From positions 868,001-932,000 of the forward strand of contig NZ_CP060694.1 in the NCBI RefSeq assembly GCF_014352935.1: a DNA stretch of 64,000 nucleotides, given 5' to 3'. This document shows positions 7,977 to 22,631 of the stretch, one piece after another (within the stretch, counting starts at the first letter, position 1; every line of letters begins with the position of its first letter). The position numbers were made by a program, and so were the translations under genes. The notes under the pieces were generated by a model, which was given only the letters and a program-made list of their open reading frames with translations, was not told the origin of the DNA and did not search any database. The stretch is from Aliarcobacter cryaerophilus (GTDB lineage: Bacteria; Campylobacterota; Campylobacteria; Campylobacterales; Arcobacteraceae).

Positions 7977-8031
7977 TGGTGCGGATGGCGAGATTTGAAC
8001 TCGCACACACGTAATGCACTACCACCTCAAG
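7977..8031 (-). pseudogene. 3' half of the host tRNA-Leu(GAG), cut off by the element
   Basis: Read on the minus strand this is the anticodon loop onward: the anticodon region CTTGAGGTG, stem strand GGTAG, a long variable arm, T arm GCGAG-TTCAAAT-CTCGC, acceptor strand CATCCGC and ACCA. The 5' half is missing here and lies at 22050-22088. Joined at the 9-bp core, the two halves give an 85-nt tRNA whose acceptor (GCGGATG/CATCCGC) and anticodon (CTACC/GGTAG) stems pair perfectly. This half has no promoter of its own in tRNA orientation and should be non-functional. Confidence 0.92.
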
Positions 8032-8063
8032 ACGGAGATTTTCCCCATTATATAGTAACTATG

Positions 8064-8096
8064 ACTACTACTGTGCAATATGTGTGCAGTAGTAGT
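8064..8096. repeat. Inverted repeat beside the left attachment site
   Basis: ACTACTACTG (8064-8073) pairs with CAGTAGTAGT (8087-8096) around a 13-nt loop. Two TGTGCA words (8072-8077, 8083-8088) lie in the loop and its edges. It sits between the core and the integrase stop codon. It could be a transcription stop for int or an integrase arm-binding site; there is no clear T run. Confidence 0.55.
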
Positions 8097-8099
8097 ATG

Positions 8100-9263
8100 C
8101 TATTTTAGTTGAAAAGTCTTACTTTCAACTTTAACCATCATATTAAAAATATTTTGTTGTTTCTGTGCTTTAAGTTTATCGTGTTCAAGTTTTAAAATTC
8201 TTGGGTCGATATAGTGTTTTTCAGTAATTTTAGAACCTTTTGAATGTCCCATTACTTTTTGAATATCCTCCAAGTTTTCACCACCATAACTCATAACTGA
8301 AGCATAAGACCTTCTCGTTGCATATAATGTTTTATACTCAACATTTATTTGTTTTAATAGTGGTTTTAAATGATAATCTACAATAGTTTTAGATTCTCTA
8401 TAATATCTACCATCTTTATTAATAAAAAGCCACTCATTTGATGGTCTTAATTCATAATAAGTTTTTAGTAGTTTTACTAATTCAGGAAAAAGTTGTATTT
8501 TTCTAAAATGATTTTTATTACTTAATGACTTTTCATTTTGTTCTGAAATTATACCTTTTGTAATACTTCTTTTAAGTGATAGTTTTTCTGTTTCAAAATC
8601 AAAATCACTCCATTTTAAAGCCATACATTCACCTGTTCTTAGTCCTAATTTAAAAGATAATTCCATAAAAACTTTAAACCAACCCTTTGCATTACTTAGA
8701 ATAAGAGATATTTCTTCAGTTGTATAAGCTTGTGTATTTTTTGGAATGTAACATAGGTCAATTGATTTTACACTTCTTGATTGAACTGGATTTTTCTCAA
8801 TTAAATCATTATCATAAGCATAATCAAATATAATATTTAAAAGATTTTTAATTCTTTTAATTCTATCGTTACATACCTCTTTTTTTTGTTTTTCTAATAA
8901 ATTCACAATATCTAATGGTTTAATGTCTTCTAGTGTAAATTGTTTAAAAGTTGGTAATATTCTATTTCTAAAAAGTCTTTCAAGTTCTTTCTGACTTGAT
9001 TTTTGTCTTCTTGAACTTGTAAGTTCCAATACCATATTACCAAACTGCTCAAAGTTATTTGTTACAATAACATTCTTTTTTTTATCTAGGATAGAATGTA
9101 AAACATCTAATGGTTTATTTTTGTTCATCCATTGTTTTGTAGTAGGACTAATTTTTTTACCAGTTGATAATCTATATAGTTTACCATTTATAGAACCGTG
9201 TACATAAATAACATTATTTCTAATTTTAAAGACCCCATCACCTTTTATTAAAATATTACTCAT
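8100..9263 (-). CDS. Tyrosine recombinase (integrase) of the element
   Basis: 387 residues. It catalyses integration and excision by breaking and rejoining the 9-bp core in tRNA-Leu. An N-terminal AP2-like arm-binding part (about 15-60) and a core-binding SAM-like domain (about 70-165) precede the catalytic domain. Active-site residues are arginine 209 in LRTGECMALKW, the arginine of LYATRRSYAS (about 317), histidine 340 in KVMGHSKGS and the nucleophile tyrosine 351 in EKHYID. The first residue of the usual HxxR box is tyrosine instead of histidine, a tolerated variant. Its ATG overlaps the stop of the excisionase-like gene (ATGA). Confidence 0.93.
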   Translation of the reverse strand: MSNILIKGDGVFKIRNNVIYVHGSINGKLYRLSTGKKISPTTKQWMNKNKPLDVLHSILDKKKNVIVTNNFEQFGNMVLELTSSRRQKSSQKELERLFRNRILPTFKQFTLEDIKPLDIVNLLEKQKKEVCNDRIKRIKNLLNIIFDYAYDNDLIEKNPVQSRSVKSIDLCYIPKNTQAYTTEEISLILSNAKGWFKVFMELSFKLGLRTGECMALKWSDFDFETEKLSLKRSITKGIISEQNEKSLSNKNHFRKIQLFPELVKLLKTYYELRPSNEWLFINKDGRYYRESKTIVDYHLKPLLKQINVEYKTLYATRRSYASVMSYGGENLEDIQKVMGHSKGSKITEKHYIDPRILKLEHDKLKAQKQQNIFNMMVKVESKTFQLK

Positions 9264-9517
9264 TTTGAACTCCTCATCAAAATAGTAATTGCTGCTTTTT
9301 GTGATGCATACATTTTACTACCATCTATATAATAATCTACTTCAGGTTCAAAGTTATTTATTAAAAATTGTCTAATTGATTGTCTGCTTTTCCCCGTTGT
9401 TTCAGATAAATAACTTACACTTGCTTTTTTAGGAATTAACATTTTAATCATTCGTTTTAATTCAGATAACATACCTTTTATTTCAAGATATTCTGTTGTG
9501 TTTGATATAGTATTCAT
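9260..9517 (-). CDS. Small DNA-binding protein, probable excisionase-like factor
   Basis: 85 residues. The central part (KKASVSYLSETTGKSRQSIR) reads as a helix-turn-helix resembling MerR/excisionase-type domains, followed by DGSKMYASQKAAITIL, which could form the wing and last helix. The gene is translationally coupled to the integrase, the usual place for a recombination directionality factor or integrase regulator. The assignment rests on position and the helix-turn-helix look; no family signature is decisive. A GGAG-type ribosome-binding site precedes the ATG. Confidence 0.6.
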   Translation of the reverse strand: MNTISNTTEYLEIKGMLSELKRMIKMLIPKKASVSYLSETTGKSRQSIRQFLINNFEPEVDYYIDGSKMYASQKAAITILMRSSK

Positions 9518-9543
9518 TGTATTTTTATCTCCATTCTTATTTT

Positions 9544-10872
9544 TTAAGAAACTTTTTTTATTTCAATTTGTTTAAATTTAAAAATATTCATAGAATTAGT
9601 ATTTTTCTCAACTCTATTTTTGAACATAAGAATTTCAACACATTTTTTTCCAACAGTTCCATTTTTGTAAATCACATCTTTTTTTACATATTTATAATCT
9701 TCATCTTTTGAAAAATTTTCAAGGTGAGGATTGTGATTGTTATAGTAAATAAATGAATATTTACTATCTTTTATTTTATTTAAAAGTTTTCTATGATTAA
9801 AATCATTGATACCATAGTTATATGAACAATTTGTAAAATCTTTTGAAGTAGAAACTTCTTCATAATTAACATAAGGAGGGTCAAATAAAACAAGTGCAGT
9901 AGAATCATTTTTTATTTTATTCATAACTGTTTCATAATTTTTGATTGAAAATTTAATATTTCCTAAGTTGAAGATTTTATTATATATCTCAACTTTGTTA
10001 ATAATTAATGGTATTTGTTTTAATTTATTTTGACAATAACAAAATGTGAATCTATTAGTTTGAGTATCCATATTAAAAGATAACATTCCACCTTGTGTAT
10101 TATGAATTAAATATAAAAAAATAGCTGCTCTTTTTGGATTCATTATTTTTTTAGCTTCAAGATTAGTAAACTCTTTATGAAGATTTTCAAATAATTCTTT
10201 TCCTTCCTCTTTATTTGTAGGATAGAATTTATTATGAGTTCTGTAATAGTTTAATTCAAATGAAGCCAAATGTCTTTGAACTTGCTTTGGATTTTTTTGA
10301 ACTTGTTTATATGCATTAATTAAAGATGGATTTTTATCACTTAATTGTATATCTTCGATTCCATTTTCTATTAATAATGGCAATGAATTATAAACAGAAC
10401 CAAATCCACCTAAAAATGGTTCTGAATATGATTTAAATTGTTTAGGATTTTTTAATAGTATTGAATTAAGAATATTTTGTTGTATATTTTTGTGTTTTTG
10501 TTTTCCTCCTCCATAAGGTAAAAAAACAAATCTTTTAGTATCTGTATCATCTGAAAAAGAATTTGTATTAATAATTTCTTTAGATTTACTTCTTAAAAAA
10601 TTATATAAATATGATTTATCAAAAAAATTATTTAATCTTTTAATTTCTTGGTGTAATGAATAATCTTTACTGTAAAGAACTAAAGATAATGTTCTATATA
10701 TCCAAGCAGAAATATGAGGTTTTTTTATATTTTGTTTTAATATATTTAAGATGATTTCTTTTGATTCATTTTGAACTTTTTTAAAATCTTCTAACATAAT
10801 TTGTTTTTGTTCTGTAATTTGAACTTGTGGAAGTATTTCTAAAACTGATGAACATAAAATTTTCTTTGTCAT
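9544..10872 (-). CDS. D12-class N6-adenine DNA methyltransferase
   Basis: 442 residues. It transfers a methyl group from S-adenosylmethionine to adenine in DNA. The order of motifs fits the Dam/D12 (alpha) class: a glycine-rich segment LPYGGGKQKH at about 118-127, the SAM-binding motif SEPFLGGFGSV at 150-160, LSDKNPSLINAY at 177-188 and the catalytic DPPY at 331-334. The first ~110 residues are an extra helical domain not found in Dam itself. No nuclease gene is next to it, so it may be an orphan modification enzyme. It is read in the same direction as the excisionase-like and integrase genes with a 26-bp gap, and divergently from the WYL gene. Confidence 0.9.
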   Translation of the reverse strand: MTKKILCSSVLEILPQVQITEQKQIMLEDFKKVQNESKEIILNILKQNIKKPHISAWIYRTLSLVLYSKDYSLHQEIKRLNNFFDKSYLYNFLRSKSKEIINTNSFSDDTDTKRFVFLPYGGGKQKHKNIQQNILNSILLKNPKQFKSYSEPFLGGFGSVYNSLPLLIENGIEDIQLSDKNPSLINAYKQVQKNPKQVQRHLASFELNYYRTHNKFYPTNKEEGKELFENLHKEFTNLEAKKIMNPKRAAIFLYLIHNTQGGMLSFNMDTQTNRFTFCYCQNKLKQIPLIINKVEIYNKIFNLGNIKFSIKNYETVMNKIKNDSTALVLFDPPYVNYEEVSTSKDFTNCSYNYGINDFNHRKLLNKIKDSKYSFIYYNNHNPHLENFSKDEDYKYVKKDVIYKNGTVGKKCVEILMFKNRVEKNTNSMNIFKFKQIEIKKVS

Positions 10873-10940
10873 AACCGAATCCTTATTGATTTAAAGTTCA
10901 GAAGTAAAACAAATATAGTTTCTTAAAAGTAGATTTATGT

Positions 10941-10946
10941 TATAAT
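10941..10946 (+). promoter_or_regulatory. -10 element for the WYL-domain gene
   Basis: TATAAT lies 28 bases before the preferred ATG (10969). Transcription would begin near 10953, leaving a short leader with GGGG before that ATG. This argues against the earlier ATG at 10957, which would be almost leaderless. The 84-bp gap is shared with the divergent methylase gene, so both promoters sit there. Confidence 0.6.
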
Positions 10947-10968
10947 TTCCTTTTTTATGGGGTATGCA

Positions 10969-12327
10969 ATGACACAAGAAAGATTTCAAGAATTACTAAA
11001 AAATGATGAATTTAAAAGCTTTAAAAAAAGAGTTGATAGTGGAAAATTTGATAATATTGATTGGTTTAATCTTGAAAATGAAATAGAAAAAATTGCAGAT
11101 AGTGAAAATAAATCTTATGAATATCATAAAATTTATGAGTATTTTCTAGAAAATAGATTTACACAAATCAAAAAATATGTAGTAAAACCAACTGATTTAA
11201 ATATTGTTTTTGATGAGATACTTAATGAACTTATTTGTAATTTAGATACCTTTATAAAAGTAAGTGATTTTTATAATGCAAATTATCAAATTGAATCTAC
11301 TATAAAAAATCAAGTAACTAAAACTATAAATTATTTACTTGACTATAATGTAATTGAAAAAGCTAAAAAAGGTGAGGGTGTTGAGTATAAAACAAATAGT
11401 GAGTTTTGGCACAAACAAGTAAATAATTACATAATAAATGATAGTGAAATACTTCAAGAGTTAAGTCCAATAATTGCTAGTTATATAAAAAATGGAAATA
11501 TAAAAACATATAATATTCAAAAACTTTTTTATAAATTTTCTAAAATTATTGAATATTCAATAATCCCTGCAATTGAACATAATCCATTATTAAATACAGA
11601 GTTTAACATACAGATTGCTTGTGAAAATGAAGAATCAATAGAAATTATTTATAATGAAGAAAAAATTGAAATTACACCATCTAGAATAGTAATTAAAAAT
11701 GATAGTAAAAAATATGTTCAAATAAAAGATGGTAAAAAAACTGACTATATTCCATTAAATGCTATAAAGATTTATGATGAATCAATTTCAAATGTAAATT
11801 CTAAACCAATAAAAAACTCAACTATGTTGTCTATTCCAACAACAAATTTATCAATTAATACAAATTTTGAAACAAGCCAAGAAGAAGAGGAAATTATAGA
11901 AGTAATCTTAGAGTGTGATAGCATAGTTTATGAATATTTTAAAATGAAACCATTAAAAAATATGAAAGTATTTGATACAGAAGATAAATTAAAAGAATTT
12001 CATATAAATTATGAAATAGAACCTAAAAACAATAATTTTTATATAGTTGCACAAGATAGAAAAGAAATGATTATTAGTACTGTTCTACATACTTTACCAC
12101 ACACAAAGATTATTAATAATGATAAATTAAATGATGAGTTGATTTCAAGATTTAAAAAATATGTGCAAGATATTGGATTTAAAATTTGTGATGAGACAAC
12201 ACCACCTACACCAACAAATCCAACCGAACCATCTTCAAAAAATCAAGATAAAAAATCAAATAAATCTATACAAAAAACTAAATATAAACAATTAAATTGG
12301 ATAGATGATGATAATCTAAGCTTCTAA
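10969..12327 (+). CDS. WYL-domain protein, probable transcriptional regulator of the element
   Basis: About 452 residues from ATG 10969 (an upstream ATG at 10957 is less likely). The N-terminal ~190 residues are helical and show no clear helix-turn-helix. A WYL-like domain follows, with IEIIYNEEKIEITPSRIVI, KKYVQIKDGKKTDYIPL and NAIKIYD. A WCX-like domain (about 315-405) follows that, with IEVILECDSIVYEYFKMKPL, a short strand region, then EMIISTVLHTLPHTKII and a final helix. The tail is proline- and lysine-rich. WYL proteins usually regulate DNA repair, mobile-element or defence genes. Its position, divergent from the methylase-excisionase-integrase run, fits a switch for the element. The family call comes from pattern similarity only. 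Confidence 0.55.
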   Translation: MTQERFQELLKNDEFKSFKKRVDSGKFDNIDWFNLENEIEKIADSENKSYEYHKIYEYFLENRFTQIKKYVVKPTDLNIVFDEILNELICNLDTFIKVSDFYNANYQIESTIKNQVTKTINYLLDYNVIEKAKKGEGVEYKTNSEFWHKQVNNYIINDSEILQELSPIIASYIKNGNIKTYNIQKLFYKFSKIIEYSIIPAIEHNPLLNTEFNIQIACENEESIEIIYNEEKIEITPSRIVIKNDSKKYVQIKDGKKTDYIPLNAIKIYDESISNVNSKPIKNSTMLSIPTTNLSINTNFETSQEEEEIIEVILECDSIVYEYFKMKPLKNMKVFDTEDKLKEFHINYEIEPKNNNFYIVAQDRKEMIISTVLHTLPHTKIINNDKLNDELISRFKKYVQDIGFKICDETTPPTPTNPTEPSSKNQDKKSNKSIQKTKYKQLNWIDDDNLSF

Positions 12328-12335
12328 ACATATAT

Positions 12336-13679
12336 TTAGAATTCTATATTTCTTCCAAAATCTTGATTTTTTAATTTTAAATCTTCTTTTTTATGTTTTA
12401 TCTTTTCATTTATGTATTGAATATAATTGTTATAAAGGTCAAGTTTTTTGGAAAATATTTCATCTTTTGTTTTTAAATGTAGATTATTTTCCTTACTTAG
12501 ATACTTTTGTATATCAAGCTTTGAACCTAAAAAATGTTTTATTTCCTGATGTTTGTCTTTATTATAAAATAAAGATACTAATTCAGTTTCAATATTTTTA
12601 ATTTTTCTTTGGAATTTAATTTGTCTATTTTTAATCTCATACTCAATATGTCTTCTTTTTAAAATCTCTTCTTCTTTCCAATAATTCTTATTTCTGCAAA
12701 TAGATGTTATAAATTCCTCTTGAGTAATAACATTATCCTTTAATTTTTGTTTTTGTAGTTTTTTAAAAAAACTGTGTTCAAATTTTGAATATAAACTAAA
12801 ATCAGTTAGTTCTGATGAGGTTCTTTGTTGATAAATCGTTAAATCATTTAAAAATTGATTACTTAAAACACTTTTTGTAAAAGATAGTTTTTTTACTGAT
12901 TCAGAAATTGTTTTTATGTGTTCATTTGCTTCTTGAATTGATTTATGTAATGAATCCATTTCTTTAAATATATTTTCTCTCTGTGCAAAAATATAGTGTT
13001 TTTGAAGCCTTGAAAAATTCATAGTTTCATTTTTATTTTTAAAAATTACTTTTGAGAGTTGATGTAAAGTCGATATTTCATCCTTAATAATTATTGATTT
13101 TAATTTCTCTTGATGATAGTTTTTAATTTTGTCGATTTTTTGTTCTTTCATCTCTGAAAAGGTCTTAATTCCTAATTTTTCCCTTGTTTTTTTTAGTGAA
13201 TAATTTTCTATATAGTTATTCATCAAAGATTTTTTATAATTAATTTTAAATTCTTTAGCTGTTTGTGTTTTATTTGAAACTACCAAGTGGTAATGTTCCA
13301 TTAAAATATCTTCACCATTTTCATTTTTTCTAGTTTTTTCTTCTATTGCAAGCAAATAGTTTTGATTTTTAAAATCTAATTGTATTTTTGAAATAAATGA
13401 TTCTCTTAAAATTAATCTCTCACTATCATTCATTTGTTCCCACCGATTAATTTTACACGGAGATATAATTATATGTTTTAATCGCTCTTCATCTTCAATA
13501 GTTCCATTCTCATAAAGTTTTATTTTTCCTTCTTTTGCTTCTGATTTTAGATAGTTAATTAGTCCAAATTTTGATTGATTTAAATAGTGTTTATCCTCAT
13601 TATTTTGATTTTGAGTGACTTTAACTATTGGTTGTAAAATCTCTTCATTAATTGATTTTTTTAATTTAAATTTTTTCAT
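12336..13679 (-). CDS. Putative relaxase (mobilization protein)
   Basis: 447 residues. A relaxase nicks oriT and leads the single strand into a recipient. The N-terminal ~135 residues show HYLNQSKFGLINYLK (a candidate nucleophile tyrosine near residue 32), then LKHIIISP at 68-75 and the metal-site-like stretch EHYHLVVSN at 128-136. These resemble motifs I to III of MOB relaxases, although the full HxDxxxHxHxxxN pattern is reduced to EHYH. The remainder is helical and highly charged. It ends a co-directional run of four genes that begins beside an IncP-like nick site, and it follows a MobC-like gene; this context is the main support. The exact MOB class is unclear. Confidence 0.62.
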   Translation of the reverse strand: MKKFKLKKSINEEILQPIVKVTQNQNNEDKHYLNQSKFGLINYLKSEAKEGKIKLYENGTIEDEERLKHIIISPCKINRWEQMNDSERLILRESFISKIQLDFKNQNYLLAIEEKTRKNENGEDILMEHYHLVVSNKTQTAKEFKINYKKSLMNNYIENYSLKKTREKLGIKTFSEMKEQKIDKIKNYHQEKLKSIIIKDEISTLHQLSKVIFKNKNETMNFSRLQKHYIFAQRENIFKEMDSLHKSIQEANEHIKTISESVKKLSFTKSVLSNQFLNDLTIYQQRTSSELTDFSLYSKFEHSFFKKLQKQKLKDNVITQEEFITSICRNKNYWKEEEILKRRHIEYEIKNRQIKFQRKIKNIETELVSLFYNKDKHQEIKHFLGSKLDIQKYLSKENNLHLKTKDEIFSKKLDLYNNYIQYINEKIKHKKEDLKLKNQDFGRNIEF

Positions 13680-13691
13680 TTTAAATTTTTC

Positions 13692-14168
13692 CTATTTTAG
13701 AGTTGATTTAATTTTGTTTAAAAAGGAACCCAACAGAATAATTTTCTGTTTGTTGTCCTTTTCTTGATTTACTTTTAAAATAAGTTTGTTGATATTTGGA
13801 ATATTTAAAATTTTAAATAAACTATCATAATCTTTTTCTACATCCCTTTGGAACTTTAACTTTTTATTATTTATAGCTTTTAAGTTTCCAACAAAAATAG
13901 CTGATGAAGTTATATTTTTAATGGTTTCTTCATTGATTTTTGTTTTATCAATAGTATTTTGAGAGATTAATAAATATAGTAAATCTTCAAATTGTCTTAA
14001 GATATGGTTTTTTAAAAAATCTTCATTTGTATATGATTGAACAGATGAGAAGATTTTTTCTTTACAATAAGCAGTTAAAGTCTTATTTGAATTTATGACA
14101 CTTTGTAAAAGAGTGTCATATTCTATATTGGTTAAATAAACTGCAATTTTTTTCTTTTTATTTTCCAT
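13692..14168 (-). CDS. MobC-like ribbon-helix-helix mobilization accessory protein
   Basis: 158 residues. The N-terminus (KKKIAVYLTNIEYDTLLQSV followed by TLTAYCKEKIFSSV) has the strand-helix-helix pattern of relaxosome accessory proteins such as MobC, which bind oriT and help the relaxase open the nick region. The rest is helical. It is 12 bp upstream of the relaxase-like gene in the same direction. Bacterial MobC proteins are often of similar size. The call depends on both pattern and position. Confidence 0.6.
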   Translation of the reverse strand: MENKKKKIAVYLTNIEYDTLLQSVINSNKTLTAYCKEKIFSSVQSYTNEDFLKNHILRQFEDLLYLLISQNTIDKTKINEETIKNITSSAIFVGNLKAINNKKLKFQRDVEKDYDSLFKILNIPNINKLILKVNQEKDNKQKIILLGSFLNKIKSTLK

Positions 14169-14177
14169 TTTATAATC

Positions 14178-14630
14178 CTAGAAACCACTTAAAAAAATAG
14201 AATTGATTGATTGGGAAAATGAGTCACCCATTATTTTTGAATTATTCTTTAAATAGACCATCCAATCATTAATGTTGAAATTATTCATTTTTCCCATATT
14301 TTTAGCGATATTTTCTTTTTCAATTGCAGATAATTTTTTATCTTTAAATAGTTTTTTTAATTTTTCAACTTCATCTTTGTATCTATTAAGTTCGTTTGTT
14401 TTTTTGATATTTAAAAGTTCATTATTAATAGTTTGGAGTTTTAAATGAGATTGTTTTAGAAAAAAATCTTTAGAACTTTTTACACTACTATTTAATGCTT
14501 TTTCTTTTAATTGTTTTGCTTCAGAAAAATTTTCTTTAAATTTCTTTATATCAGCGTATGTAAGTTGCGTATATTTGAATAACTCATAAGTTTCTTCATA
14601 CAATTCGTTTAAATTTTTTATTGATGCCAT
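14178..14630 (-). CDS. Helical, lysine-rich protein of the mobilization operon, unknown function
   Basis: 150 residues, almost entirely helical and charged (EEKAKQLKEKALN-like pattern, then DEVEKLKKLFKDKKLSAIEK) with a coiled-coil character and no membrane segment. It lies between the 101-residue gene and the MobC-like gene with gaps of about 10 bp, so it is surely cotranscribed with them. A role in the relaxosome or in element maintenance is plausible but is inferred only from position. Confidence 0.6.
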   Translation of the reverse strand: MASIKNLNELYEETYELFKYTQLTYADIKKFKENFSEAKQLKEKALNSSVKSSKDFFLKQSHLKLQTINNELLNIKKTNELNRYKDEVEKLKKLFKDKKLSAIEKENIAKNMGKMNNFNINDWMVYLKNNSKIMGDSFSQSINSIFLSGF

Positions 14631-14642
14631 ATTCGTTCCTTT

Positions 14643-14948
14643 TTATTTATTTTTTTTATCTAAATATTTGTCAAAGTCATTATTTAAATTTGATTTTGGT
14701 TTGTTTGGATTCTTTTTTAATAAGTACTGATTTGATAGTATTTTTAAAACTCTAAATTCATCTTTTGTAAAATAAATAGTAAAAGTTTTTTCTTTGATAT
14801 TTAATAGTCGAGTTTTTAGTTTATTTCTAATATTTACGATTATTAGTATATCAATGTTTTTAGAATCTAAAATTTCAACATTATTAAATACTTCACTAAA
14901 CTTTTCAATACTTTTTTTTGTTAGGGTTAAAGAAATAGTTTGATTCAT
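14643..14948 (-). CDS. First gene of the mobilization operon, unknown 101-residue protein
   Basis: A small basic protein with alternating strand-like segments (QTISLTLTKKSIEKF, IDILIIVNIRNKL, TFTIYFTKDEFRVL) and a lysine/asparagine-rich tail. The pattern could fit a small DNA-binding fold but I recognise no family. AAGGAC precedes the ATG by about 6 bases, and a TATAAT lies upstream. It is the gene nearest the oriT-like site. Confidence 0.6.
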   Translation of the reverse strand: MNQTISLTLTKKSIEKFSEVFNNVEILDSKNIDILIIVNIRNKLKTRLLNIKEKTFTIYFTKDEFRVLKILSNQYLLKKNPNKPKSNLNNDFDKYLDKKNK

Positions 14949-14981
14949 ATAAAGTCCTTTTCAAAATACTTAGATATTAGT

Positions 14982-14987
14982 ATTATA
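14982..14987 (-). promoter_or_regulatory. -10 element for the mobilization operon
   Basis: Minus-strand TATAAT about 35 bases upstream of the 14948 start, with AAAGGAC as ribosome-binding site between them. It is the only good -10 match close to this operon and lies between the operon and the oriT-like hairpin. Confidence 0.5.
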
Positions 14988-15063
14988 AAAAATATGATAA
15001 ATATAAAAAATTTTAAATTTATTTGTATATTTTTGATGATTTTACTTTTTAACTAACCCCATA

Positions 15064-15097
15064 CATACCTTGTTGAAACAAGTATGTCTATCCTGCT
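15064..15097 (+). other. Candidate origin of transfer (oriT) with IncP-like nick site
   Basis: An inverted repeat (ACATAC-C-TTGTT at 15064-15075, AACAAGTATGT at 15078-15088, one bulged C) is followed by exactly 8 bases, CTATCCTG, and then C. CTATCCTG^C is the nick-region sequence of the IncP/RP4 plasmid group, where the nick also falls 8 bases after an inverted repeat. The predicted nick is between 15096 and 15097. The site lies 116 bp upstream of the mobilization operon, the usual position. The match is by eye and nicking is untested. Confidence 0.72.
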
Positions 15098-15180
15098 AAT
15101 AAAATTTTTAAAAATTTGCTTTACTTTTCTTCTTGTTTTATTAATATAGGTATATATAAAAAATTAGGGTTGGAGAAAAA

Positions 15181-16230
15181 ATGACAAGAAGAAATTATAA
15201 ACAAAATTCAAAATATTTATATTTACAGAAAAAAATAAAACAATCACAATATGCTAAAAACATTACGTTTATTTCTAAAAATAATATAATTTATACATTA
15301 GAAGATATTAATAATTATAATGAGAAAATTAAATCTTCAATTATTGAAAATGAAATTAATTCTATACATAGAGCTTTAGATAAAAAAATATCTATATTTA
15401 AAACAACAACTATAAAATCAAATTACAATTTATCTACTAACCAATCAAGCAAAGATATTGATAGACAATTAAAAGTTCAGTATAAGCAACTAAAAGATTA
15501 TCACCAATATAAAAATCAATTCAAATTAAATGGTAAAAGATTGGAAAACAAAAGTGTTAAAATTTATGAATTAACAGGAGCTTTAAATCTACATTCAAAT
15601 TCTATTGATATTTTAAAATCCAAAGCAGATTTAGAACACTATATAAAATCAATAATATATGCAAAAAAGAAATTTGATATTGGTAGAATTGAGTTATGTA
15701 TTACATCTTACACATTAAAACATATAAAAAATCTATTTAAAGATTTTAAAATTAGAGTAAATAATAAATATATTACTTTAAATTTAAAATTTGAAAATCA
15801 TATTTATATTATTGAAGAAAAAGGGAAAATAGAGAAGGGTAGCTATATATATTTTACATTACTTGATAAGGAAAAGAATAGCAAAATGAATCTGGTTAGA
15901 TATTTTTATAAAAATATTTTAACAGAACGATATACTAAAAAACCAACTAAAGAACATACGATATTTTCGAAATTAGGCATTAGAATTAAACAGTTTTCAA
16001 AAGATTTTTTTAACCGTAAAGTTCAAAAACATATACTTTATAAAACAAATAACAAGCTATATTTTATGATTAAAAATAAAAAAAATAATATAAAATTATC
16101 TCCAACAAAAAAAGATTTAAAATCATTTTTATTTTATACAGCATCATTATATAGAAAAAGGATTTTATTTTTATTTGTTAAAAAATTTGTTTTTTACTCC
16201 AAAACTAATCAAAATTTGTTCAAATTGTAG
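15181..16230 (+). CDS. Unknown basic 349-residue protein of the element
   Basis: I do not recognise it. It is extremely rich in lysine, asparagine and tyrosine, with no signal peptide. The N-terminal half is helical (NYKQNSKYLYLQKKIKQSQ), the middle has strands (GRIELCITSYTLKHIKNLFK, NHIYIIEEKGKIEKG), and the end is hydrophobic and basic (RILFLFVKKFVFYSKT). The ribosome-binding site GGAG lies 8 bases before the ATG. It is transcribed away from the oriT-like site, opposite to the mobilization operon. It could act in transfer or replication, but nothing in the sequence decides this. Confidence 0.55.
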   Translation: MTRRNYKQNSKYLYLQKKIKQSQYAKNITFISKNNIIYTLEDINNYNEKIKSSIIENEINSIHRALDKKISIFKTTTIKSNYNLSTNQSSKDIDRQLKVQYKQLKDYHQYKNQFKLNGKRLENKSVKIYELTGALNLHSNSIDILKSKADLEHYIKSIIYAKKKFDIGRIELCITSYTLKHIKNLFKDFKIRVNNKYITLNLKFENHIYIIEEKGKIEKGSYIYFTLLDKEKNSKMNLVRYFYKNILTERYTKKPTKEHTIFSKLGIRIKQFSKDFFNRKVQKHILYKTNNKLYFMIKNKKNNIKLSPTKKDLKSFLFYTASLYRKRILFLFVKKFVFYSKTNQNLFKL

Positions 16231-16605
16231 ATTGAAAACTTATGAAAATAGATTTATGAGAAGTATTTTAACAATAATAATATAAATTGTTAAAGTAAAA
16301 TATAAAATTTTCTTTTATTTATTATTAAGAATTATAGGTTAAAAAGATTTTTATAAAAGGTAGATTTATTGAGGAATGTGAGAAAAAAGTTTTTTGATAA
16401 AGATATAATTTTTGAAATTTTGAAAGAGTATTTAATGAGCTTATATTAGGAGAAAAGTAAGATAAATATTTATAAATATATCTAGGAAATCATTAGTGAT
16501 TATTATGATGAAATAACTTATAAAGTTCCTATTTGTGAATATTTTTAATTAATTAACAATTCAGTAATTATAAATTAGCTAGACTTTCGTTTATAAGGAG
16601 TTCAT
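16231..16605. other. 375-bp gene-free stretch with a possible relic reading frame
   Basis: Very AT-rich. One frame from 16372 to 16548 reads plausibly as protein (RNVRKKFFDKDIIFEILKEY, EKSKINIYKYI, EIISDYYDEITYKVPICEYF) but is broken by two in-frame TAG codons. It may be the remains of a lost gene. AAGGAG (about 16597) at the end is the ribosome-binding site of the endonuclease gene. I see no RNA gene or clear terminator here. Confidence 0.35.
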
Positions 16606-18657
16606 ATGCCATTATCAATAACAGATTTTGTTGAAAAAATTATTCCGGGTAATTATTGGTTAACTAAGTCAATGGAGTTTTCAAAAGTAAATTCAAGTGG
16701 TACATTATGGTATTTAAAGAAATGGATTGTTTATTACAAATATTTATTTTTTAAAGATACAATTACTCAAAAAGATTACAATGAAATAAGAGATATATTT
16801 ATTTCATTTATTGATACTTTACCAGATAATGAACATGTTCGTGAAAATGCAGAAAATTTCTTTTTTGAAATTGATATTAGAAACAACGAAAGTTTTTTGA
16901 CATTAAATGATTTTCTTAATAATATACCTAATTTATCAACATCAAATGAATTACAACAGTATAGAATAAGTGCAAAAAAATTTTATTTTATTTATATAAT
17001 GAATGTTGGTGGACAAGCAGGATACAAAAAAGATATTAAACAATGGATTATTGAAAAGAATTCGTATTATAATGTTTTAGAAAAACTCAAAATCAAATTA
17101 TTAATAGATGATAAAGAATCAGATTATAGTATGTTGATTTCAGATTTTCCAGCTTCATTTAGAAATGAAAGACAAATTTTCTTTTATTATGGATTATTTC
17201 ACGGTAATGAAAAAGCTGATTTAAATGGTTTTTACAATTTAACAAATATAGGCAAATTAATTATAAATGCATCTTTCGATGAGTTATTGTTAATATGGGA
17301 ACATCAAAAAATTAAAATGGTTTCACAGTCTCCTATTACTGATATCCAGAATTTAAGTAGAGATATTCCTATAGATTCTGAAAAATTTAATACTTGTTTT
17401 CATCCTTATGTTTCTTTTTTGGAAATTATGGTGAATAATAATACTATTACATTAGATGATTATCAATATGTAATCTCTAGAGTTAGCCAAGAAGATAATT
17501 TAAAAGAGATATCAGATAGTATTTCTGATATTTTAACAGAATCTAAAGCAAAAATTTCGAACTTCAATAGAATTGCAGATAAAAAAATTGATGATTTTAA
17601 AAAGGAATTGGTAAAGTTTATTTTAGGTATTTCTGAAATGAAGAAAGATAAAGGAAGTAATTATTTTTCTTTCTTAACAAAATATGAAAATAAAAAAGTT
17701 AGTGTTTCAGATTCAGACAAAGCAAAATTTGTTTTGAAAAATTATAAATATATAACAAATTATTTAGATGAACAATATTTAGAAAGATACAATCAATTTA
17801 AAAATGAATTGAGAAATAAATATAATTCAAATACAAATAGTCAAGTATATGAAATTGATATTAATTTGAAGTATGAGTGGAGTAAATATATAATTAATCT
17901 AGATAAAAATTTATACTTTGGACTAATTTATATTTTATGTTCATTAAAAATAAGTAAATATGATTATGATTTAGATGAAAATATGTTTGGAAAAGAATTC
18001 AATAATTTTAAATCATTATTGAAATCATTTGGAATAAAGAAGAAACTAGATTTTATTAATTTAATGATGGGAATACAAGATACTTTTAAAGTTGAAGAAA
18101 AGCTTTTAGTTAGTGTTTCTGAGGATGATTATTCAATGACAGATTTTATTAATTTAGAAATTGAAGTTTCAATTGAAAAACTTTCTGAAATATCTAGACG
18201 AGCATCAGTCAATAATGTTATATCAAGAAAAAGAGATACAACATTAATACAAACAATAAAAACATATTATAATAAATACTATTTAACCGATGAAAGATTA
18301 ATTAAATGTGATTGCTGTAAGGAGACTACATTTTTAACGACAAACAATTATCCTTATATAGAATTTCACCATTTAATACCATTTTCAACAGATTATGGTC
18401 CGGACCATTATTTAAATTTATTTGGATTATGTCCAAATTGTCATAGAAAAATGCATTTTATAAGCACTGAAAGTAAAAATGCGTTATACTCTGACTTATC
18501 ATTGAATAATAATATGCAAAAAACATTAAAAAATAGAATAAGCGATTTATTAAGTGAAAACATACTTGAGCCTATTCATTTGGAGTTTTTATTAAAAGAG
18601 AAAATTATATCAAGAGAAGAATATGAGAGATATATGAATGGTGAAATAGCAGTATAA
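16606..18657 (+). CDS. Restriction endonuclease with AlwI-like region and C-terminal HNH nuclease domain
   Basis: 683 residues. The N-terminal ~260 residues resemble AlwI/MlyI-type type II enzymes, especially NLTNIGKLIINASFDELLLI followed by WEHQKIKMVSQSPIT. The C-terminal domain is an HNH nuclease: cysteines at about 568-571 (CDCC), histidines 588-589 in IEFHHLIPFS, asparagine near 604 and CPNCH at 609-613. It probably cuts unmodified foreign DNA at the site protected by the two methylases that follow. Its TAA overlaps the first methylase ATG, and AAGGAG precedes its own ATG. The recognition sequence cannot be read from this sequence. Confidence 0.75.
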   Translation: MPLSITDFVEKIIPGNYWLTKSMEFSKVNSSGTLWYLKKWIVYYKYLFFKDTITQKDYNEIRDIFISFIDTLPDNEHVRENAENFFFEIDIRNNESFLTLNDFLNNIPNLSTSNELQQYRISAKKFYFIYIMNVGGQAGYKKDIKQWIIEKNSYYNVLEKLKIKLLIDDKESDYSMLISDFPASFRNERQIFFYYGLFHGNEKADLNGFYNLTNIGKLIINASFDELLLIWEHQKIKMVSQSPITDIQNLSRDIPIDSEKFNTCFHPYVSFLEIMVNNNTITLDDYQYVISRVSQEDNLKEISDSISDILTESKAKISNFNRIADKKIDDFKKELVKFILGISEMKKDKGSNYFSFLTKYENKKVSVSDSDKAKFVLKNYKYITNYLDEQYLERYNQFKNELRNKYNSNTNSQVYEIDINLKYEWSKYIINLDKNLYFGLIYILCSLKISKYDYDLDENMFGKEFNNFKSLLKSFGIKKKLDFINLMMGIQDTFKVEEKLLVSVSEDDYSMTDFINLEIEVSIEKLSEISRRASVNNVISRKRDTTLIQTIKTYYNKYYLTDERLIKCDCCKETTFLTTNNYPYIEFHHLIPFSTDYGPDHYLNLFGLCPNCHRKMHFISTESKNALYSDLSLNNNMQKTLKNRISDLLSENILEPIHLEFLLKEKIISREEYERYMNGEIAV

Positions 18658-19505
18658 TGGATGTATTAGAATTTGTAGATTTAAAAAAAAATATTAATGT
18701 TGAAGAGTTATATTCAAAAATAATTCATGCAAATAATGTAGATGTATTAAAATTATTACCTGAGAATTCTATAGATTTAATTGTAACAAGTCCTCCATAT
18801 GATGATTTGAGAGATTATGAACAACAAATAATTTGGAATTTTGAGAAATTTAAAGTAATAGTAGATGAATTATATAGAATAATGAAAGATGGTGGAACTA
18901 TAGTTTGGGTAGTTTCAGATAAAACAAAAGAAGGAAATAAATCATTAACAAGTTTTAAACAAGCAATTTATTTTCAAGATATAGGATTTAATATATATGA
19001 TGTGATTATCTATGAAAAAGCTGGTTCTGGACCGCCTCATCCCAAGAGATATTTTAATACATTTGAATATATGTTTATAATTACAAAGGGTAAACCAAAA
19101 ACAGTTAATTTATTAACTGATAAAAAGAATAAATGGGCGGGTGTCGAAACTTATTCTGAGATTACAAGAAGAGAAAAAGATGGTACTTTGACTAATAAGG
19201 GTAAAAAGACTGTTGGCGAATATGGAATTAGAACTAATATTTGGAGATATATTAATGGAAAGAATTTTTCAACAAAAGATAAAATAGCATATAAGCATCC
19301 AGCTATTTTCCCTGAAAAGTTGGCAGAAGACCATATTCTATCTTGGAGTAATGAAGGAGATGTTGTTTTAGATATTTTTGGAGGTAGCGGAACAACAGTG
19401 AAACAGGCAGAACTATTAAATAGGAAATGGATTTATATAGATAAAGTAAGAGAATATTGTGAAATAACTATAAAAAGAATGGAAGATTTAAAGAATGGAA
19501 ACTAA
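18657..19505 (+). CDS. Amino DNA methyltransferase M1 of the restriction-modification operon
   Basis: 282 residues of the beta-type order, catalytic motif first: TSPPY at 44-48 (LIVTSPPYDDLRDYE) and the SAM-binding motif DIFGGSGTT near the C-terminus (FGGSGT 241-246). Such enzymes make N6-methyladenine or N4-methylcytosine; TSPPY alone does not decide. The target-recognition part lies between the motifs (about 110-220). It probably modifies one strand of an asymmetric site, with M2 modifying the other. It overlaps the endonuclease gene by 1 base and M2 by 11 bases. Confidence 0.87.
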   Translation: MDVLEFVDLKKNINVEELYSKIIHANNVDVLKLLPENSIDLIVTSPPYDDLRDYEQQIIWNFEKFKVIVDELYRIMKDGGTIVWVVSDKTKEGNKSLTSFKQAIYFQDIGFNIYDVIIYEKAGSGPPHPKRYFNTFEYMFIITKGKPKTVNLLTDKKNKWAGVETYSEITRREKDGTLTNKGKKTVGEYGIRTNIWRYINGKNFSTKDKIAYKHPAIFPEKLAEDHILSWSNEGDVVLDIFGGSGTTVKQAELLNRKWIYIDKVREYCEITIKRMEDLKNGN

Positions 19506-21102
19506 TTTATTATTTCAAACAATAATTTATGAAGCTCAAGATATTGATTTGTCAATAATTAAAATTAGTCAATTAAAACAAATGTTAAACAGTAGTGGAA
19601 ATCTATTTATTATTGCAAATAATATCTATAAAAATGGAATTATTGAAAATTCTTTTTTTGATTTTATTGAAATAGCGTTAAATAATGAATTAAAATACGT
19701 TAATACAATAGTATTTCCTATTGAGAATTCAAAAGAAGGACTTAATCATAATATAAAATATTTGATTTGGTTCGTTCAAGATTATAATTTAATGACTTTT
19801 AATAAAGATACTATTAGAGAAAAACATATATGGAAAGATGTTGAGTGGGGAAAGCGTAAAAAGAATTATAATGAAAAAGGTAAAGACCCTAGTAATGTTT
19901 GGATACCAACGATTGATGATGGTAAAGGAAAAATTACTAGTCACATAATATTATCAATAGAACAAATTATCAATAGATGTTTAGTATCAACAACTAAGAA
20001 AAATGACCAAATCCTTATTGAAATGGGATACGATTTAAATAAAAAAGATTTAATAGGTGAAAGAAAAATAAAGATTTTAACAAATTCACTTGTAATAAAT
20101 AATAGTAGTTTAGATAATAGTAGTTTAGATAATAGTAGTTTAGATAATAGTAGTTTAGATAATAGTAGTTTAGATAATAGTAGTTTAGATAATAGTAGTT
20201 TAGATAATAGTAGTTTAGATAATAGTAGTTTAGATAATAGTAGTTTAGATAATAGTAGTTTAGATAATAGTAGTTTAGATAATAGTAGTACTGCAGATGT
20301 GTATTTTAAAAGTTCTGAATCTATGAAAGAAATTAAAGATAATAGTGTTTCCTTAATGGTCACATCTCCACCTTATTGGGATTTAAAGAACTATTTTAAA
20401 AAAGGTCAAATAGGACAAGAAAACTATGAAGATTATTTAAATCGATTGGATAGTATTTGGAAAGAAACATTTAGAGTTTTAAAATTAGATGGGAGTATGT
20501 GGATTAATATTAATACAAGAACAAAAGATAAAAAGCCTATTTTGATTCCTCATGATATTATTAAGAGGTGTAAAAAGATAGGTTTTAAATTAAAAGATAT
20601 AATTATTTGGCATAAATCATCAGGAATTCCAACTCATAAAAATAATTTAGTAGACAAGTATGAATATTTTTTATGGTTTAGTAAAACAAACAAAACAAAT
20701 CTTAATATTAATAATATAAAAGAGTTAAATGATTATAAAAATAATTATTTGAATAATGGATTAATTTGGAATATAAATAGAAAAGCAGGTAGCGTAGGAA
20801 AAGATTTCATTCATCCAGCAATATATCCTACAGAATTAATTGATAGAGTTATAAAATTAATGACAATTGAAAATGATATTGTAATTGACCCTTTTCTTGG
20901 ATCTGGTACATCAATGTTGTCATCTTTAAAGAACAATAGAAATTTTATTGGATATGAGTATAATGAAGATTTCTTAGATTTAATGAATTATAGAATTAAT
21001 GAAGATAAATTGAATAGTAAAAACTCAATAAATTTTCATTTTAGTAAAAGAATCATAAATAAAAACAAAGTATTTAGGAAAGATAGTATTGATGGAAACT
21101 GA
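19495..21102 (+). CDS. DNA methyltransferase M2: degenerate methylase-like half joined by NSSLD repeats to an intact methylase
   Basis: 535 residues. The C-terminal half is a complete beta-type methylase, with TSPPYWDLKNYF at 290-301 and DPFLGSGTS at about 465-473. The N-terminal half (1-200) follows the same domain order, with KYLIWFVQDYN matching EYFLWFSKTNK and SHIILSIEQIINR matching HPAIYPTELIDR. Its own catalytic SPPY and SAM-binding GxGT motifs are absent. The middle (203-262) is twelve tandem NSSLD units plus NSS. I read it as a fusion in which the first methylase lost activity but may still help target recognition. It overlaps M1 by 11 bases and the next gene by 11 bases. Confidence 0.83.
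   Translation: METNLLFQTIIYEAQDIDLSIIKISQLKQMLNSSGNLFIIANNIYKNGIIENSFFDFIEIALNNELKYVNTIVFPIENSKEGLNHNIKYLIWFVQDYNLMTFNKDTIREKHIWKDVEWGKRKKNYNEKGKDPSNVWIPTIDDGKGKITSHIILSIEQIINRCLVSTTKKNDQILIEMGYDLNKKDLIGERKIKILTNSLVINNSSLDNSSLDNSSLDNSSLDNSSLDNSSLDNSSLDNSSLDNSSLDNSSLDNSSLDNSSLDNSSTADVYFKSSESMKEIKDNSVSLMVTSPPYWDLKNYFKKGQIGQENYEDYLNRLDSIWKETFRVLKLDGSMWININTRTKDKKPILIPHDIIKRCKKIGFKLKDIIIWHKSSGIPTHKNNLVDKYEYFLWFSKTNKTNLNINNIKELNDYKNNYLNNGLIWNINRKAGSVGKDFIHPAIYPTELIDRVIKLMTIENDIVIDPFLGSGTSMLSSLKNNRNFIGYEYNEDFLDLMNYRINEDKLNSKNSINFHFSKRIINKNKVFRKDSIDGN
20101..20289 (+). repeat. Twelve perfect 15-bp tandem repeats inside methylase M2
   Basis: The unit AATAGTAGTTTAGAT occurs 12 times without a mismatch (20101-20280), followed by a 9-base partial copy. 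As 15 is a multiple of three, each unit adds NSSLD and copy changes keep the frame. Perfect identity over 180 bp suggests recent or ongoing slippage. The other strand also reads open (LLLSK units) but that is only a shadow. Confidence 0.97.
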
Positions 21103-21499
21103 AGAATTGAGATTAAAAATATATGAGAGGTTAGGATTAGAGATTGGTAGTCTAAAATCTGAAAGTGGTAATGATTGGGTTCGTGCAGAAAAAGAAATTT
21201 TAGAGGAATATAGAAATACGATATTTGAAAAGCTAAAAGAACTAAATTCTATTGAATATTTAAACATAAATAAAGATAGTGATGAATATTGTTTAGTTAT
21301 AAATTCTAATTCTTTATTATTGCAAAATGCTAAAGTAATTATTGCAAAAAGAGATGATTTAGATAAAGTAGATATTAACAAATTAATTTTAGATGGAAAT
21401 AAAGATATTCTTATCAATTTAACAAAATATCAAAAATTATCATCAGATGAAATAGATTTAATAATTCCCAAAAGTACATATTTAGTAAAAAAAATTTAA
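21092..21499 (+). CDS. Small unknown protein ending the restriction-modification operon; frame may continue to 21612
   Basis: 135 residues from ATG 21092 (TTG 21089 just before it is unlikely); AGGAA lies 11 bases upstream. It reads as a soluble alpha/beta protein (ELRLKIYERLGLEIGSLKSE, EEYRNTIFEKLKELNSIEYL, ILINLTKYQKLSSDEIDLII). I recognise no family. The frame stops just after an A8 run. In the -1 frame the sequence continues without a stop for about 37 codons (NLIENQILTSEQKEKLV, ESNLDYSELLNKFVTMIS), which looks like genuine coding sequence. The functional protein may therefore be about 172 residues. Being cotranscribed with the methylases, it may regulate or assist the system. Confidence 0.6.
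   Translation: METEELRLKIYERLGLEIGSLKSESGNDWVRAEKEILEEYRNTIFEKLKELNSIEYLNINKDSDEYCLVINSNSLLLQNAKVIIAKRDDLDKVDINKLILDGNKDILINLTKYQKLSSDEIDLIIPKSTYLVKKI
21487..21494 (+). other. A8 run at a probable frameshift site
   Basis: Eight A lie in the context GTA AAA AAA ATT TAA, so the heptamer A AAA AAA is in the right phase for -1 ribosomal slippage. One added A in the DNA, or transcript slippage, would give the same longer protein. A homopolymer of this length can also vary between cells. Confidence 0.6.
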
Positions 21500-21612
21500 T
21501 TGAAAATCAAATACTTACATCAGAGCAAAAAGAAAAACTAGTATTATTGATGAAAGAAAGTAATCTTGATTATTCAGAATTGTTAAATAAATTTGTTACA
21601 ATGATTTCGTAA

Positions 21613-21933
21613 ATAAATTTAATAATGAGTTGTACATTTTATATAATAAAATTACTTGTATCATAATAATACTAAATTTATACGGAATTAATAAGTTTTA
21701 TTTATTAGTTCTAATATAAAATTTAACTTAAGAAAAAGTGCACCAGAAATTATGAAATTTTTATTAAATTGTGCACTAAAGTGTGCACTAAAGTTAACAA
21801 GATTAATACATTTTGACAATATAAAATTAAAATAAGATTTTGAAAGTAAGAAGAATTATATAAAAATCACAAGCAACAATTACATTTTTCTTTTAAAAAG
21901 AAAATTATAAATTAAATTAGAATACCCATAAAA
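21613..21933. other. 321-bp gene-free right end of the element
   Basis: No gene is seen. It contains three GTGCAC words (21738, 21771, 21783), the last two inside the tandem 12-mer GTGCACTAAAGT. The rest is plain AT-rich sequence leading up to the intact tRNA-Leu. Confidence 0.6.
21771..21794. repeat. Tandem 12-bp repeat GTGCACTAAAGT, possible integrase arm sites
   Basis: Two perfect adjacent copies (21771-21782, 21783-21794), each with the palindrome GTGCAC; a third GTGCAC lies at 21738-21743. Similar TGTGCA words occur at the left end (8072, 8083). Words shared by both ends near the cores are what integrase arm-type or excisionase sites would look like. This role is inferred. Confidence 0.5.
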
Positions 21934-22017
21934 TGGTGCGGATAACTGGATTTGAACCAGCACAAGTTTCCTTATGAGCACCTCAAGCCCACGTGTCTAC
22001 CATTCCACCATATCCGC
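21934..22017 (-). tRNA. Intact tRNA-Leu(GAG) carried by the element
   Basis: 84 nt including CCA. The acceptor stem GCGGATA/TATCCGC pairs perfectly. The anticodon stem TGGGC/GCTCA has one G-U pair, the loop TTGAGGT gives anticodon GAG, and there is a long variable arm and the T arm CTGG-TTCAAAT-CCAG. It differs clearly from the split host gene in the anticodon stem, variable arm and T stem, so it was brought in and is not a duplicate. It lies 32 bp downstream of the host 5' half on the same strand and can be read from the old promoter. It also contains the 9-bp core (21979-21987). Confidence 0.95.
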
Positions 22018-22049
22018 AATTCTAAATTTAACACCACGCTTTTAAAAGT

Positions 22050-22088
22050 CACCTCAAGGTAGCGTGTCTACCGTTCCACCACATCCGC
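22050..22088 (-). pseudogene. 5' half of the host tRNA-Leu(GAG)
   Basis: On the minus strand: acceptor GCGGATG, D arm, stem strand CTACC and loop TTGAGGT up to the core CACCTCAAG (22050-22058). The sequence then changes to element DNA. Its partner half is at 7977-8031. It keeps the native upstream region and so may still be transcribed as a 5' fragment ahead of the intact tRNA. Confidence 0.92.
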
Positions 22089-22130
22089 ATAGAAAAAATA
22101 GACCGAAATTATATCTATTTTTTCTTAAGC

Positions 22131-22631
22131 TTATCTATATTCGTTTTTATATTCTACATAATGTTTTGCATGGTCAATTAAACCTTGAACTTCCTCATCG
22201 CTTAACTCTCTTACAACTTTTGCAGGGCTTCCCATAATTAAGCTTTTTGGTGGGAAAACTTTGCCATATGTTACCAAAGAATTTGCTCCTACGATACTTC
22301 CTTCACCAATTACTGCATTATCTAAAATTGTAGCACTCATTCCTATTAGACAGTTATTTTCAATAGTACATCCATGAAGCATAACTTTATGACCAACTGT
22401 TACATTATCACCAATAATTGTTTTTGTATTTGTATCTGTATGAATACAAGATAGATCTTGAATATTTGTATTTTTACCAATTCTAACCTCATTTACATCA
22501 GAACGAATAACACAACCAAACCAAACAGAACTATCTTCTGCTATTTCTATATTTCCAATTAAATCTGCACTTGGTGCAATCCAAGCAGATGGTGCGATTT
22601 TTGGGTAAAACTCTTTAAATTTTAATATCAT
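22131..22631 (-). CDS. Gamma-carbonic-anhydrase-like hexapeptide-repeat protein (YrdA/PaaY family)
   Basis: 166 residues of left-handed beta-helix repeats (IAPSADLIGNIEIAEDSSVW, then GDNVTVGHKVMLHGCTIEN). The metal-binding histidine positions of gamma-class carbonic anhydrases are visible in IHTDTNT, VTVGHKVMLHGC. Many relatives have no shown carbonic anhydrase activity, so the substrate is uncertain. The C-terminal helix (EEVQGLIDHAKHYVEYKNEY) completes the trimer-type fold. It is the first host gene to the right of the element. Confidence 0.88.
   Translation of the reverse strand: MILKFKEFYPKIAPSAWIAPSADLIGNIEIAEDSSVWFGCVIRSDVNEVRIGKNTNIQDLSCIHTDTNTKTIIGDNVTVGHKVMLHGCTIENNCLIGMSATILDNAVIGEGSIVGANSLVTYGKVFPPKSLIMGSPAKVVRELSDEEVQGLIDHAKHYVEYKNEYR

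Follow-up and report, generated by a model that had tools for sequence, protein, structure and literature searches.

A genomic island that splits the tRNA-Leu(GAG) gene of Aliarcobacter cryaerophilus and carries a probable replacement tRNA in its attachment site

How does a cell fare when a mobile element integrates into the anticodon loop of a transfer RNA (tRNA) gene and does not rebuild it? The question is raised by a 64,000-nt stretch of the Aliarcobacter cryaerophilus genome (assembly GCF_014352935.1, contig NZ_CP060694.1, positions 868,001 to 932,000 of the forward strand), here called the window and numbered from its first letter. In it, the host gene for tRNA-Leu(GAG) is split by an element that spans 14,036 bp from left core to right core (8023-22058). 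The genome containing the window (G000) is a single complete contig of 2.02 Mb. We consider it very likely that a site-specific integrative element destroyed the host tRNA-Leu(GAG) gene and that a tRNA with the same anticodon, borne in the attachment site of the element (attP), replaces it, probably from the host promoter and probably with a host that depends on it.

The orphaned 3' half of the host gene, which includes the CCA end and the core of the left attachment site (attL, 8023-8031), lies at 7977-8031. The orphaned 5' half, which includes the core of the right attachment site (attR, 22050-22058), lies at 22050-22088. Both are on the minus strand and both stand where the initial annotation had placed them. 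The two halves have CACCTCAAG in common, at 8023-8031 and 22050-22058, and CTTGAGGTG is found in the 5' half (22088-22050), the 3' half (8031-7977) and the internal tRNA (at 21979). When the halves are joined once at the core, ARAGORN calls an 85-nt tRNA-Leu(GAG) with perfect pairing; at the junctions themselves it calls no host tRNA, finding nothing at attL and only the separate internal gene at attR. The undivided locus was found in genomes of the same genus using a 322-nt query of joined flanks. The intact, contiguous tRNA at the same locus of four genomes (G012, G016, G020, and G025) is 100% identical to the joined 85-nt sequence, and the flanks of element-free relatives align contiguously through the junction with 90-96% identity. 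Together, the identical tRNA and the contiguous flanks exclude chance, and the empty sites indicate a precise 14,036-bp insertion into a formerly single gene. The annotation had proposed that the halves were once one gene and would be found joined in relatives lacking the element, and they are joined there exactly as predicted.

The element carries a complete tRNA-Leu(GAG) of 84 nt at 21934-22017 (minus strand). It had been described as clearly different in sequence from the host gene, and the difference is real, with 73% identity between the two. The tRNA inventory of the genome was built from 49 Rfam tRNA matches, each typed with ARAGORN, and contains one leucine tRNA for each of the anticodons GAG (the internal gene), CAA, TAA, and TAG. 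A genome scan for Leu-GAG 5' halves, with one mismatch allowed, gave nothing beyond the orphan half and the internal gene. A second tRNA-Leu(GAG) of the host type, which would have argued against the annotation, was thus looked for genome-wide and not found, and the internal gene is the only intact Leu-GAG gene. CTT and CTC account for ~24% of leucine codons in the larger open reading frames (ORFs) of the window (CUU 23.5%, CUC 0.7%), so a cell without its only GAG tRNA would be expected to suffer severely. Because the single tRNA-Leu(GAG) is borne by the element, the cell probably depends on that segment, and the replacement is probably essential.

The ends of the element contain repeats that flank both the core and the replacement tRNA. 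On the left (P-like) arm, a pair of TGCACA repeats 11 bp apart lies inside an inverted repeat after the integrase gene, int (8072-8088, minus strand). The right (P'-like) arm (21738-21787, minus strand) has a TGCACA pair 12 bp apart (21770-21787) and a third repeat, GTGCAC, at 21738. Short direct-repeat pairs 11-12 bp apart occur at each end of the six elements compared. The motif is TGCACA in G000 and G432 (with one side degenerate in G007), TTCTCA in G009, and TTCTCGG in G446 and G460, and the same motif stands on both sides of the core and tRNA in five of the six (G000, G009, G432, G446, and G460; 0/1000 shuffles each). Arm-type sites of lambda-like integrases have such a paired-repeat look, and by this analogy the flanking repeats are putative arm-type integrase sites. 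On the right, the repeat pair is found past the replacement tRNA, so that the tRNA is enclosed between core and arm, which makes it a part of attP and not easily separated from the integration module. Beyond the 9-bp core, the element carries no fragment of its target.

The same arrangement recurs in other genomes. A tandem-half signature, defined as a Leu-GAG 5' half followed by another Leu D-arm within 14-44 nt of the anticodon, was found in 5 of 399 genomes of the order, and a backward-read control pattern in none of the 399. A scan of 84,980 species genomes returned 10 stretches. Eight are real and come from Sulfurimonas, Aliarcobacter, Halarcobacter, other Campylobacterota, and one bin labelled Cloacimonadota; the other two, from Bacteroidales, were rejected as artefacts of N-filled scaffolds joining different tRNAs. 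Loci with spacers longer than the signature allows were reached through relatives of the integrase. The total is at least 17 genomes, nearly all Campylobacterota, each with a single replacement tRNA-Leu(GAG) preceded by one or two orphan 5' halves. The replacement follows the host 5' half by 11-45 nt and in the same direction in 17/17 loci, and ARAGORN finds it intact in all 16 genomes with complete sequence there (in G005 the contig ends within it). Compared with the integrase of the window, those at the same target in other genomes are 85%, 80%, and 44% identical, and the eight with at least 42% identity all stand directly before a tRNA-Leu 3' half (G000, G005, G007, G009, G432, G446, G447, and G460). 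In G007, G009, G432, and G447, too, the host tRNA put together from its two ends folds as Leu(GAG).

These elements have moved between genera. Those of G432 and G447, which belong to two genera and have unrelated flanks, are 99.0% identical over 20,403 bp, with an alignment that ends at the tRNA on either side. Judged from a near-identical upstream flank, one and the same host gene holds different elements in G446 and G447. The replacement tRNAs of G000 and G007 are 96% identical while the host tRNAs are 85% identical (70-73% between host and replacement), so the replacement tracks the element and not the host. Only the integrase and a small adjacent ORF are common to the elements of the window, G007, and G009. 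The G007 element carries a NACHT protein and an FtsK-like ATPase; the G009 element carries a type IIG restriction enzyme, a DrmD/helicase-like protein, and an AriAB-like protein; and a decayed copy in G417 carries type I restriction-modification genes. Orphan halves have decayed in G022 and G381 (5' half) and in G417 (3' half), and the replacement tRNA is still intact in each.

Three genomes contain stacked halves. In G447, two successive orphan halves precede the intact replacement, and the second half is a piece of that replacement tRNA, with a perfect 71-bp repeat unit. The genome has a single element body at this locus, as would be expected if a second, self-targeted insertion later lost one body by recombination. 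A Sulfurimonas bin (G414) has two different halves upstream of the intact gene. G381 has a decayed outermost half, a second half, and the intact gene, and the acceptor stem of the outermost half matches a 3' half 12 kb away. This stacking suggests that a replacement tRNA can become the next target.

What would such an insertion do to the cell? The layout points to a tyrosine integrase that would recombine the 9-bp core in the anticodon loop of tRNA-Leu(GAG). Because attP lacks the tRNA 3' half, integration destroys the host gene. The promoter and 5' half would stay upstream, and the complete tRNA with the same anticodon, which appears to sit in attP between the core and the right arm-type sites in the direction of the target, would be dropped 11-45 nt downstream in that direction. 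In the simplest reading, the host promoter would give a precursor of 5' half, spacer, and tRNA to be trimmed by RNase P, and the cell would be left with one tRNA-Leu(GAG), borne by the element. Transcription of the replacement tRNA most likely starts at the promoter of the host tRNA. The candidate for this promoter is a consensus match at 22108-22137 (minus strand), with TATAAT at 22108-22113, 20 nt upstream of the 5' half, and a -35-like TAGATA at a spacing of 18 nt. An exact TATAAT stands upstream of the 5' half in 6 of the 17 genomes, compared to ~7% expected per site from shuffles.

Several observations weigh against parts of this account. Nine of the 17 genomes have no -10 element upstream of the 5' half with up to one mismatch, and in several a hairpin resembling a terminator of the upstream gene lies before it, so the case for the host promoter draws on a subset of the genomes. 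A weak promoter-like match in the window (TTTAAA-16-TAGAAT, 22046-22019) precedes the replacement tRNA. Essentiality is not certain because tRNA-Leu(UAG) might read CUU, and since transfer genes were not identified, the mobility of the window copy is deduced from its relatives.

The element tRNA might instead be self-sufficient, with its own promoter as in actinobacteriophages, and its nearness to the host 5' half incidental; we regard this as possible but doubtful. The tRNA of phage Fionnbharth has a demonstrated promoter of its own (PMC10865867), TATAAT occurs within the left arm of attP in G000, and the match at 22046-22019 (minus strand) has 9 of 12 consensus positions. That match, however, would start transcription inside the tRNA, and an exact -10 before the replacement is missing in 17/17 genomes. 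The spacer between half and replacement is ~32 nt in the window but only 11 nt in G009 and G005, which leaves no room for a promoter between the two. The constant orientation and 11-45 nt placement in all 17 loci also speak against incidental nearness.

Two further explanations differ in what they make of the internal tRNA. It could be an incidental passenger in a cell that tolerates losing the host tRNA because all CUN codons are read by tRNA-Leu(UAG). A modified U34 could in principle wobble in this way and CUC is rare, but CUU alone makes up nearly a quarter of leucine codons, the internal tRNA matches the isoacceptor type of the broken gene in every case and always lies next to the core, and it is intact in every complete case while orphan halves decay; we judge this explanation improbable. 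The same decay led us to reject a split tRNA, with halves that are still transcribed and come together in trans and an internal tRNA that is a surplus copy. The halves in the window are well preserved and pair perfectly, but those in G022, G381, and G417 have decayed beside an intact replacement, and Bacteria are not known to have the tRNA splicing endonuclease and ligase that archaeal split tRNAs use. We give this reading almost no weight. For the group as a whole, we lean towards the view that Campylobacterota host a class of defence-carrying islands with a complete tRNA-Leu(GAG) in attP, which integration puts behind the host tRNA promoter and which retains the target core and can serve as the target of the next island, and that a probably essential tRNA has in this way been serially replaced by mobile DNA and not vertically inherited.

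The principle of tRNA replacement is already known. It was named tRNA-dependent lysogeny in 2024 (mBio) for actinobacteriophages (mycobacteriophages Fionnbharth, LeBron, and Gaia, and Gordonia phages), in which the phage tRNA was shown experimentally to be needed after integration (PMC10865867). The window element resembles those phages in its tyrosine integrase, in a short core that overlaps a host tRNA (9 bp, against 8-17 bp in the phages), in leaving that tRNA broken, and in bringing a divergent tRNA of the same isotype to stand in for a host gene present in one copy (PMC10865867). The window has a PF00589 integrase adjoining the split gene, a 9-bp core, and no other copy of the isoacceptor, and it shares every sequence-testable defining feature of tRNA-dependent lysogeny except that of being a temperate phage. 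We describe it as working like tRNA-dependent lysogeny and do not claim that it is one. The known cases are phages of Actinobacteria, and the Fionnbharth tRNA lies away from the attachment site with its own promoter (PMC10865867), whereas the window-type elements gave no phage genes in the searches made, bear cargo of restriction-modification and other defence types, hold their tRNA in attP behind the host 5' half, and have apparently had their replacements targeted again. In Sinorhizobium meliloti, a tRNA-Leu(UAG) is reported to be inactivated by a prophage with a xenologous substitute, and some islands carry tRNA genes (PMC11476347). According to its authors, nothing there indicates that the tRNA genes carried by elements become integration sites in their turn (PMC11476347), while serial orphan halves are present here in three genomes. 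Prophage Lj965 of Lactobacillus johnsonii, for which we rely on its citation in PMC10865867, also leaves the tRNA not rebuilt at the junction and carries the cognate tRNA, but it is a phage and its host belongs to the Firmicutes.

Integration in the anticodon loop had been singled out as unusual by the initial annotation. That part did not hold, as Islander lists 2,083 anticodon-centred islands and 1,836 at the T-stem/junction region (PMC4383910); what is unusual is that the element leaves the tRNA unrepaired and brings a complete xenologous one instead. Conventional anticodon-loop islands (Islander class A; Williams 2002, cited there) have the same type of tyrosine integrase and crossover but restore the target with a tRNA fragment borne in attP, where the window element has only the 9-bp core (PMC4383910). 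The target is regenerated at neither end, so the regenerated tRNA and displaced fragment typical of Islander islands are absent. We found no description of such tRNA replacement in Arcobacter or Campylobacter in the open-access literature, with incomplete coverage. Apparently new are the promoter-capturing layout embedded in attP, the seemingly non-phage, defence-type cargo, the host phylum, and the stacking.

With these elements, tRNA-dependent integration would reach beyond temperate phages, to islands that are apparently not phages and to the Campylobacterota. The layout is compact, in that a single recombination both disrupts a probably essential gene and delivers a substitute for it, apparently under the host promoter, and it offers a simple route by which an island could become hard to lose without a toxin-antitoxin pair. 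It would also explain sharp differences in tRNA-Leu(GAG) sequence between close relatives, and the stacked halves, as a record of successive invasions, could serve to count island turnover.

A different insertion, of 5.7 kb, occurs in the same tRNA-Leu(GAG) gene of another genome (L089, G023:C8:113500-121000). At one end of it lies a 5' fragment of 72 nt and at the other an identical, complete tRNA (621-692 and 6300-6386), and it is a conventional element with the gene rebuilt.

The body of the window element begins with the tyrosine integrase (387 aa, 8100-9263, minus strand; Pfam PF00589, PF22022, and PF14659). Next to it is a small 85-aa protein (9260-9517, minus strand), by position a candidate recombination directionality factor or DNA-binding protein; family searches gave no match, and the ORF is kept beside int in G007 (71% identity) and G009 (45%). 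The cargo includes a D12/Dam-type adenine DNA methyltransferase (9544-10872, minus strand; PF02086) and a 456-aa protein (10957-12327, plus strand) with no family match and an uninformative single-sequence AlphaFold model. Four ORFs without a family match follow on the minus strand (12336-13679, 13692-14168, 14178-14630, and 14643-14948) and are, by appearance, possibly mobilization genes; for the first, no plasmid relative was found and the single-sequence AlphaFold model was uninformative. A 349-aa protein (15181-16230, plus strand) has a partial homologue beside the decayed 3' half of the G417 element (57% identity over 96 aa). The remaining cargo, all on the plus strand, consists of an HNH endonuclease with a McrA-like C-terminal domain (16606-18657; PF01844, PADLOC type IV restriction endonuclease, PDB 6ghc), a probable restriction gene, and two N6/N4 DNA methyltransferases (18657-19505 and 19495-21102; PF01555, PADLOC). 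The second methyltransferase (535 aa) has a perfect 15-bp tandem repeat of 12.7 copies (20099-20289), encoding NSSLD repeats in frame between its two domains, and the copy number could vary between strains.

A PHROGs scan of ten element proteins gave matches to integrase and methyltransferase only, with no phage structural genes. No similar DNA was found among plasmid and phage records, neither the tandem-half signature nor the integrase was found in viral contigs, and phage relatives of the integrase are at most ~29% identical among the matches listed. The ORFs considered as candidate relaxase or conjugation genes had no Pfam, NCBIfam, or PHROG match. The element is best read as a genomic island, apparently non-phage and probably mobilizable, and it is presumably able to excise.

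Three other loci deserve mention. L182 (G415:C40:236000-255900) has an orphan 5' half and a replacement tRNA, and no integrase or 3' half was detected within ~39 kb; it is possibly a fossil of which only the replacement tRNA survived. This is the bin labelled Cloacimonadota, whose neighbourhood was not classified, and it was not used as evidence of spread beyond Campylobacterota. In a draft metagenome bin (G005; L090 and L188, contigs C12 and C68), a type-B replacement tRNA lies behind the host 5' half and a type-A integrase (93%) lies at the 3' half on a separate contig, which may reflect a hybrid element or mixed strains. At L194 (G444:C97), a related integrase (39-41% identical) adjoins an apparent tRNA-Met(CAT) 3' half broken in the anticodon loop, which suggests the same strategy at another tRNA. 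In the window's own genome, ARAGORN also called a tRNA-Phe (L032, G000:C1:85201-85287) that falls below the Rfam tRNA cut-off and is probably tRNA-like or another structured RNA.

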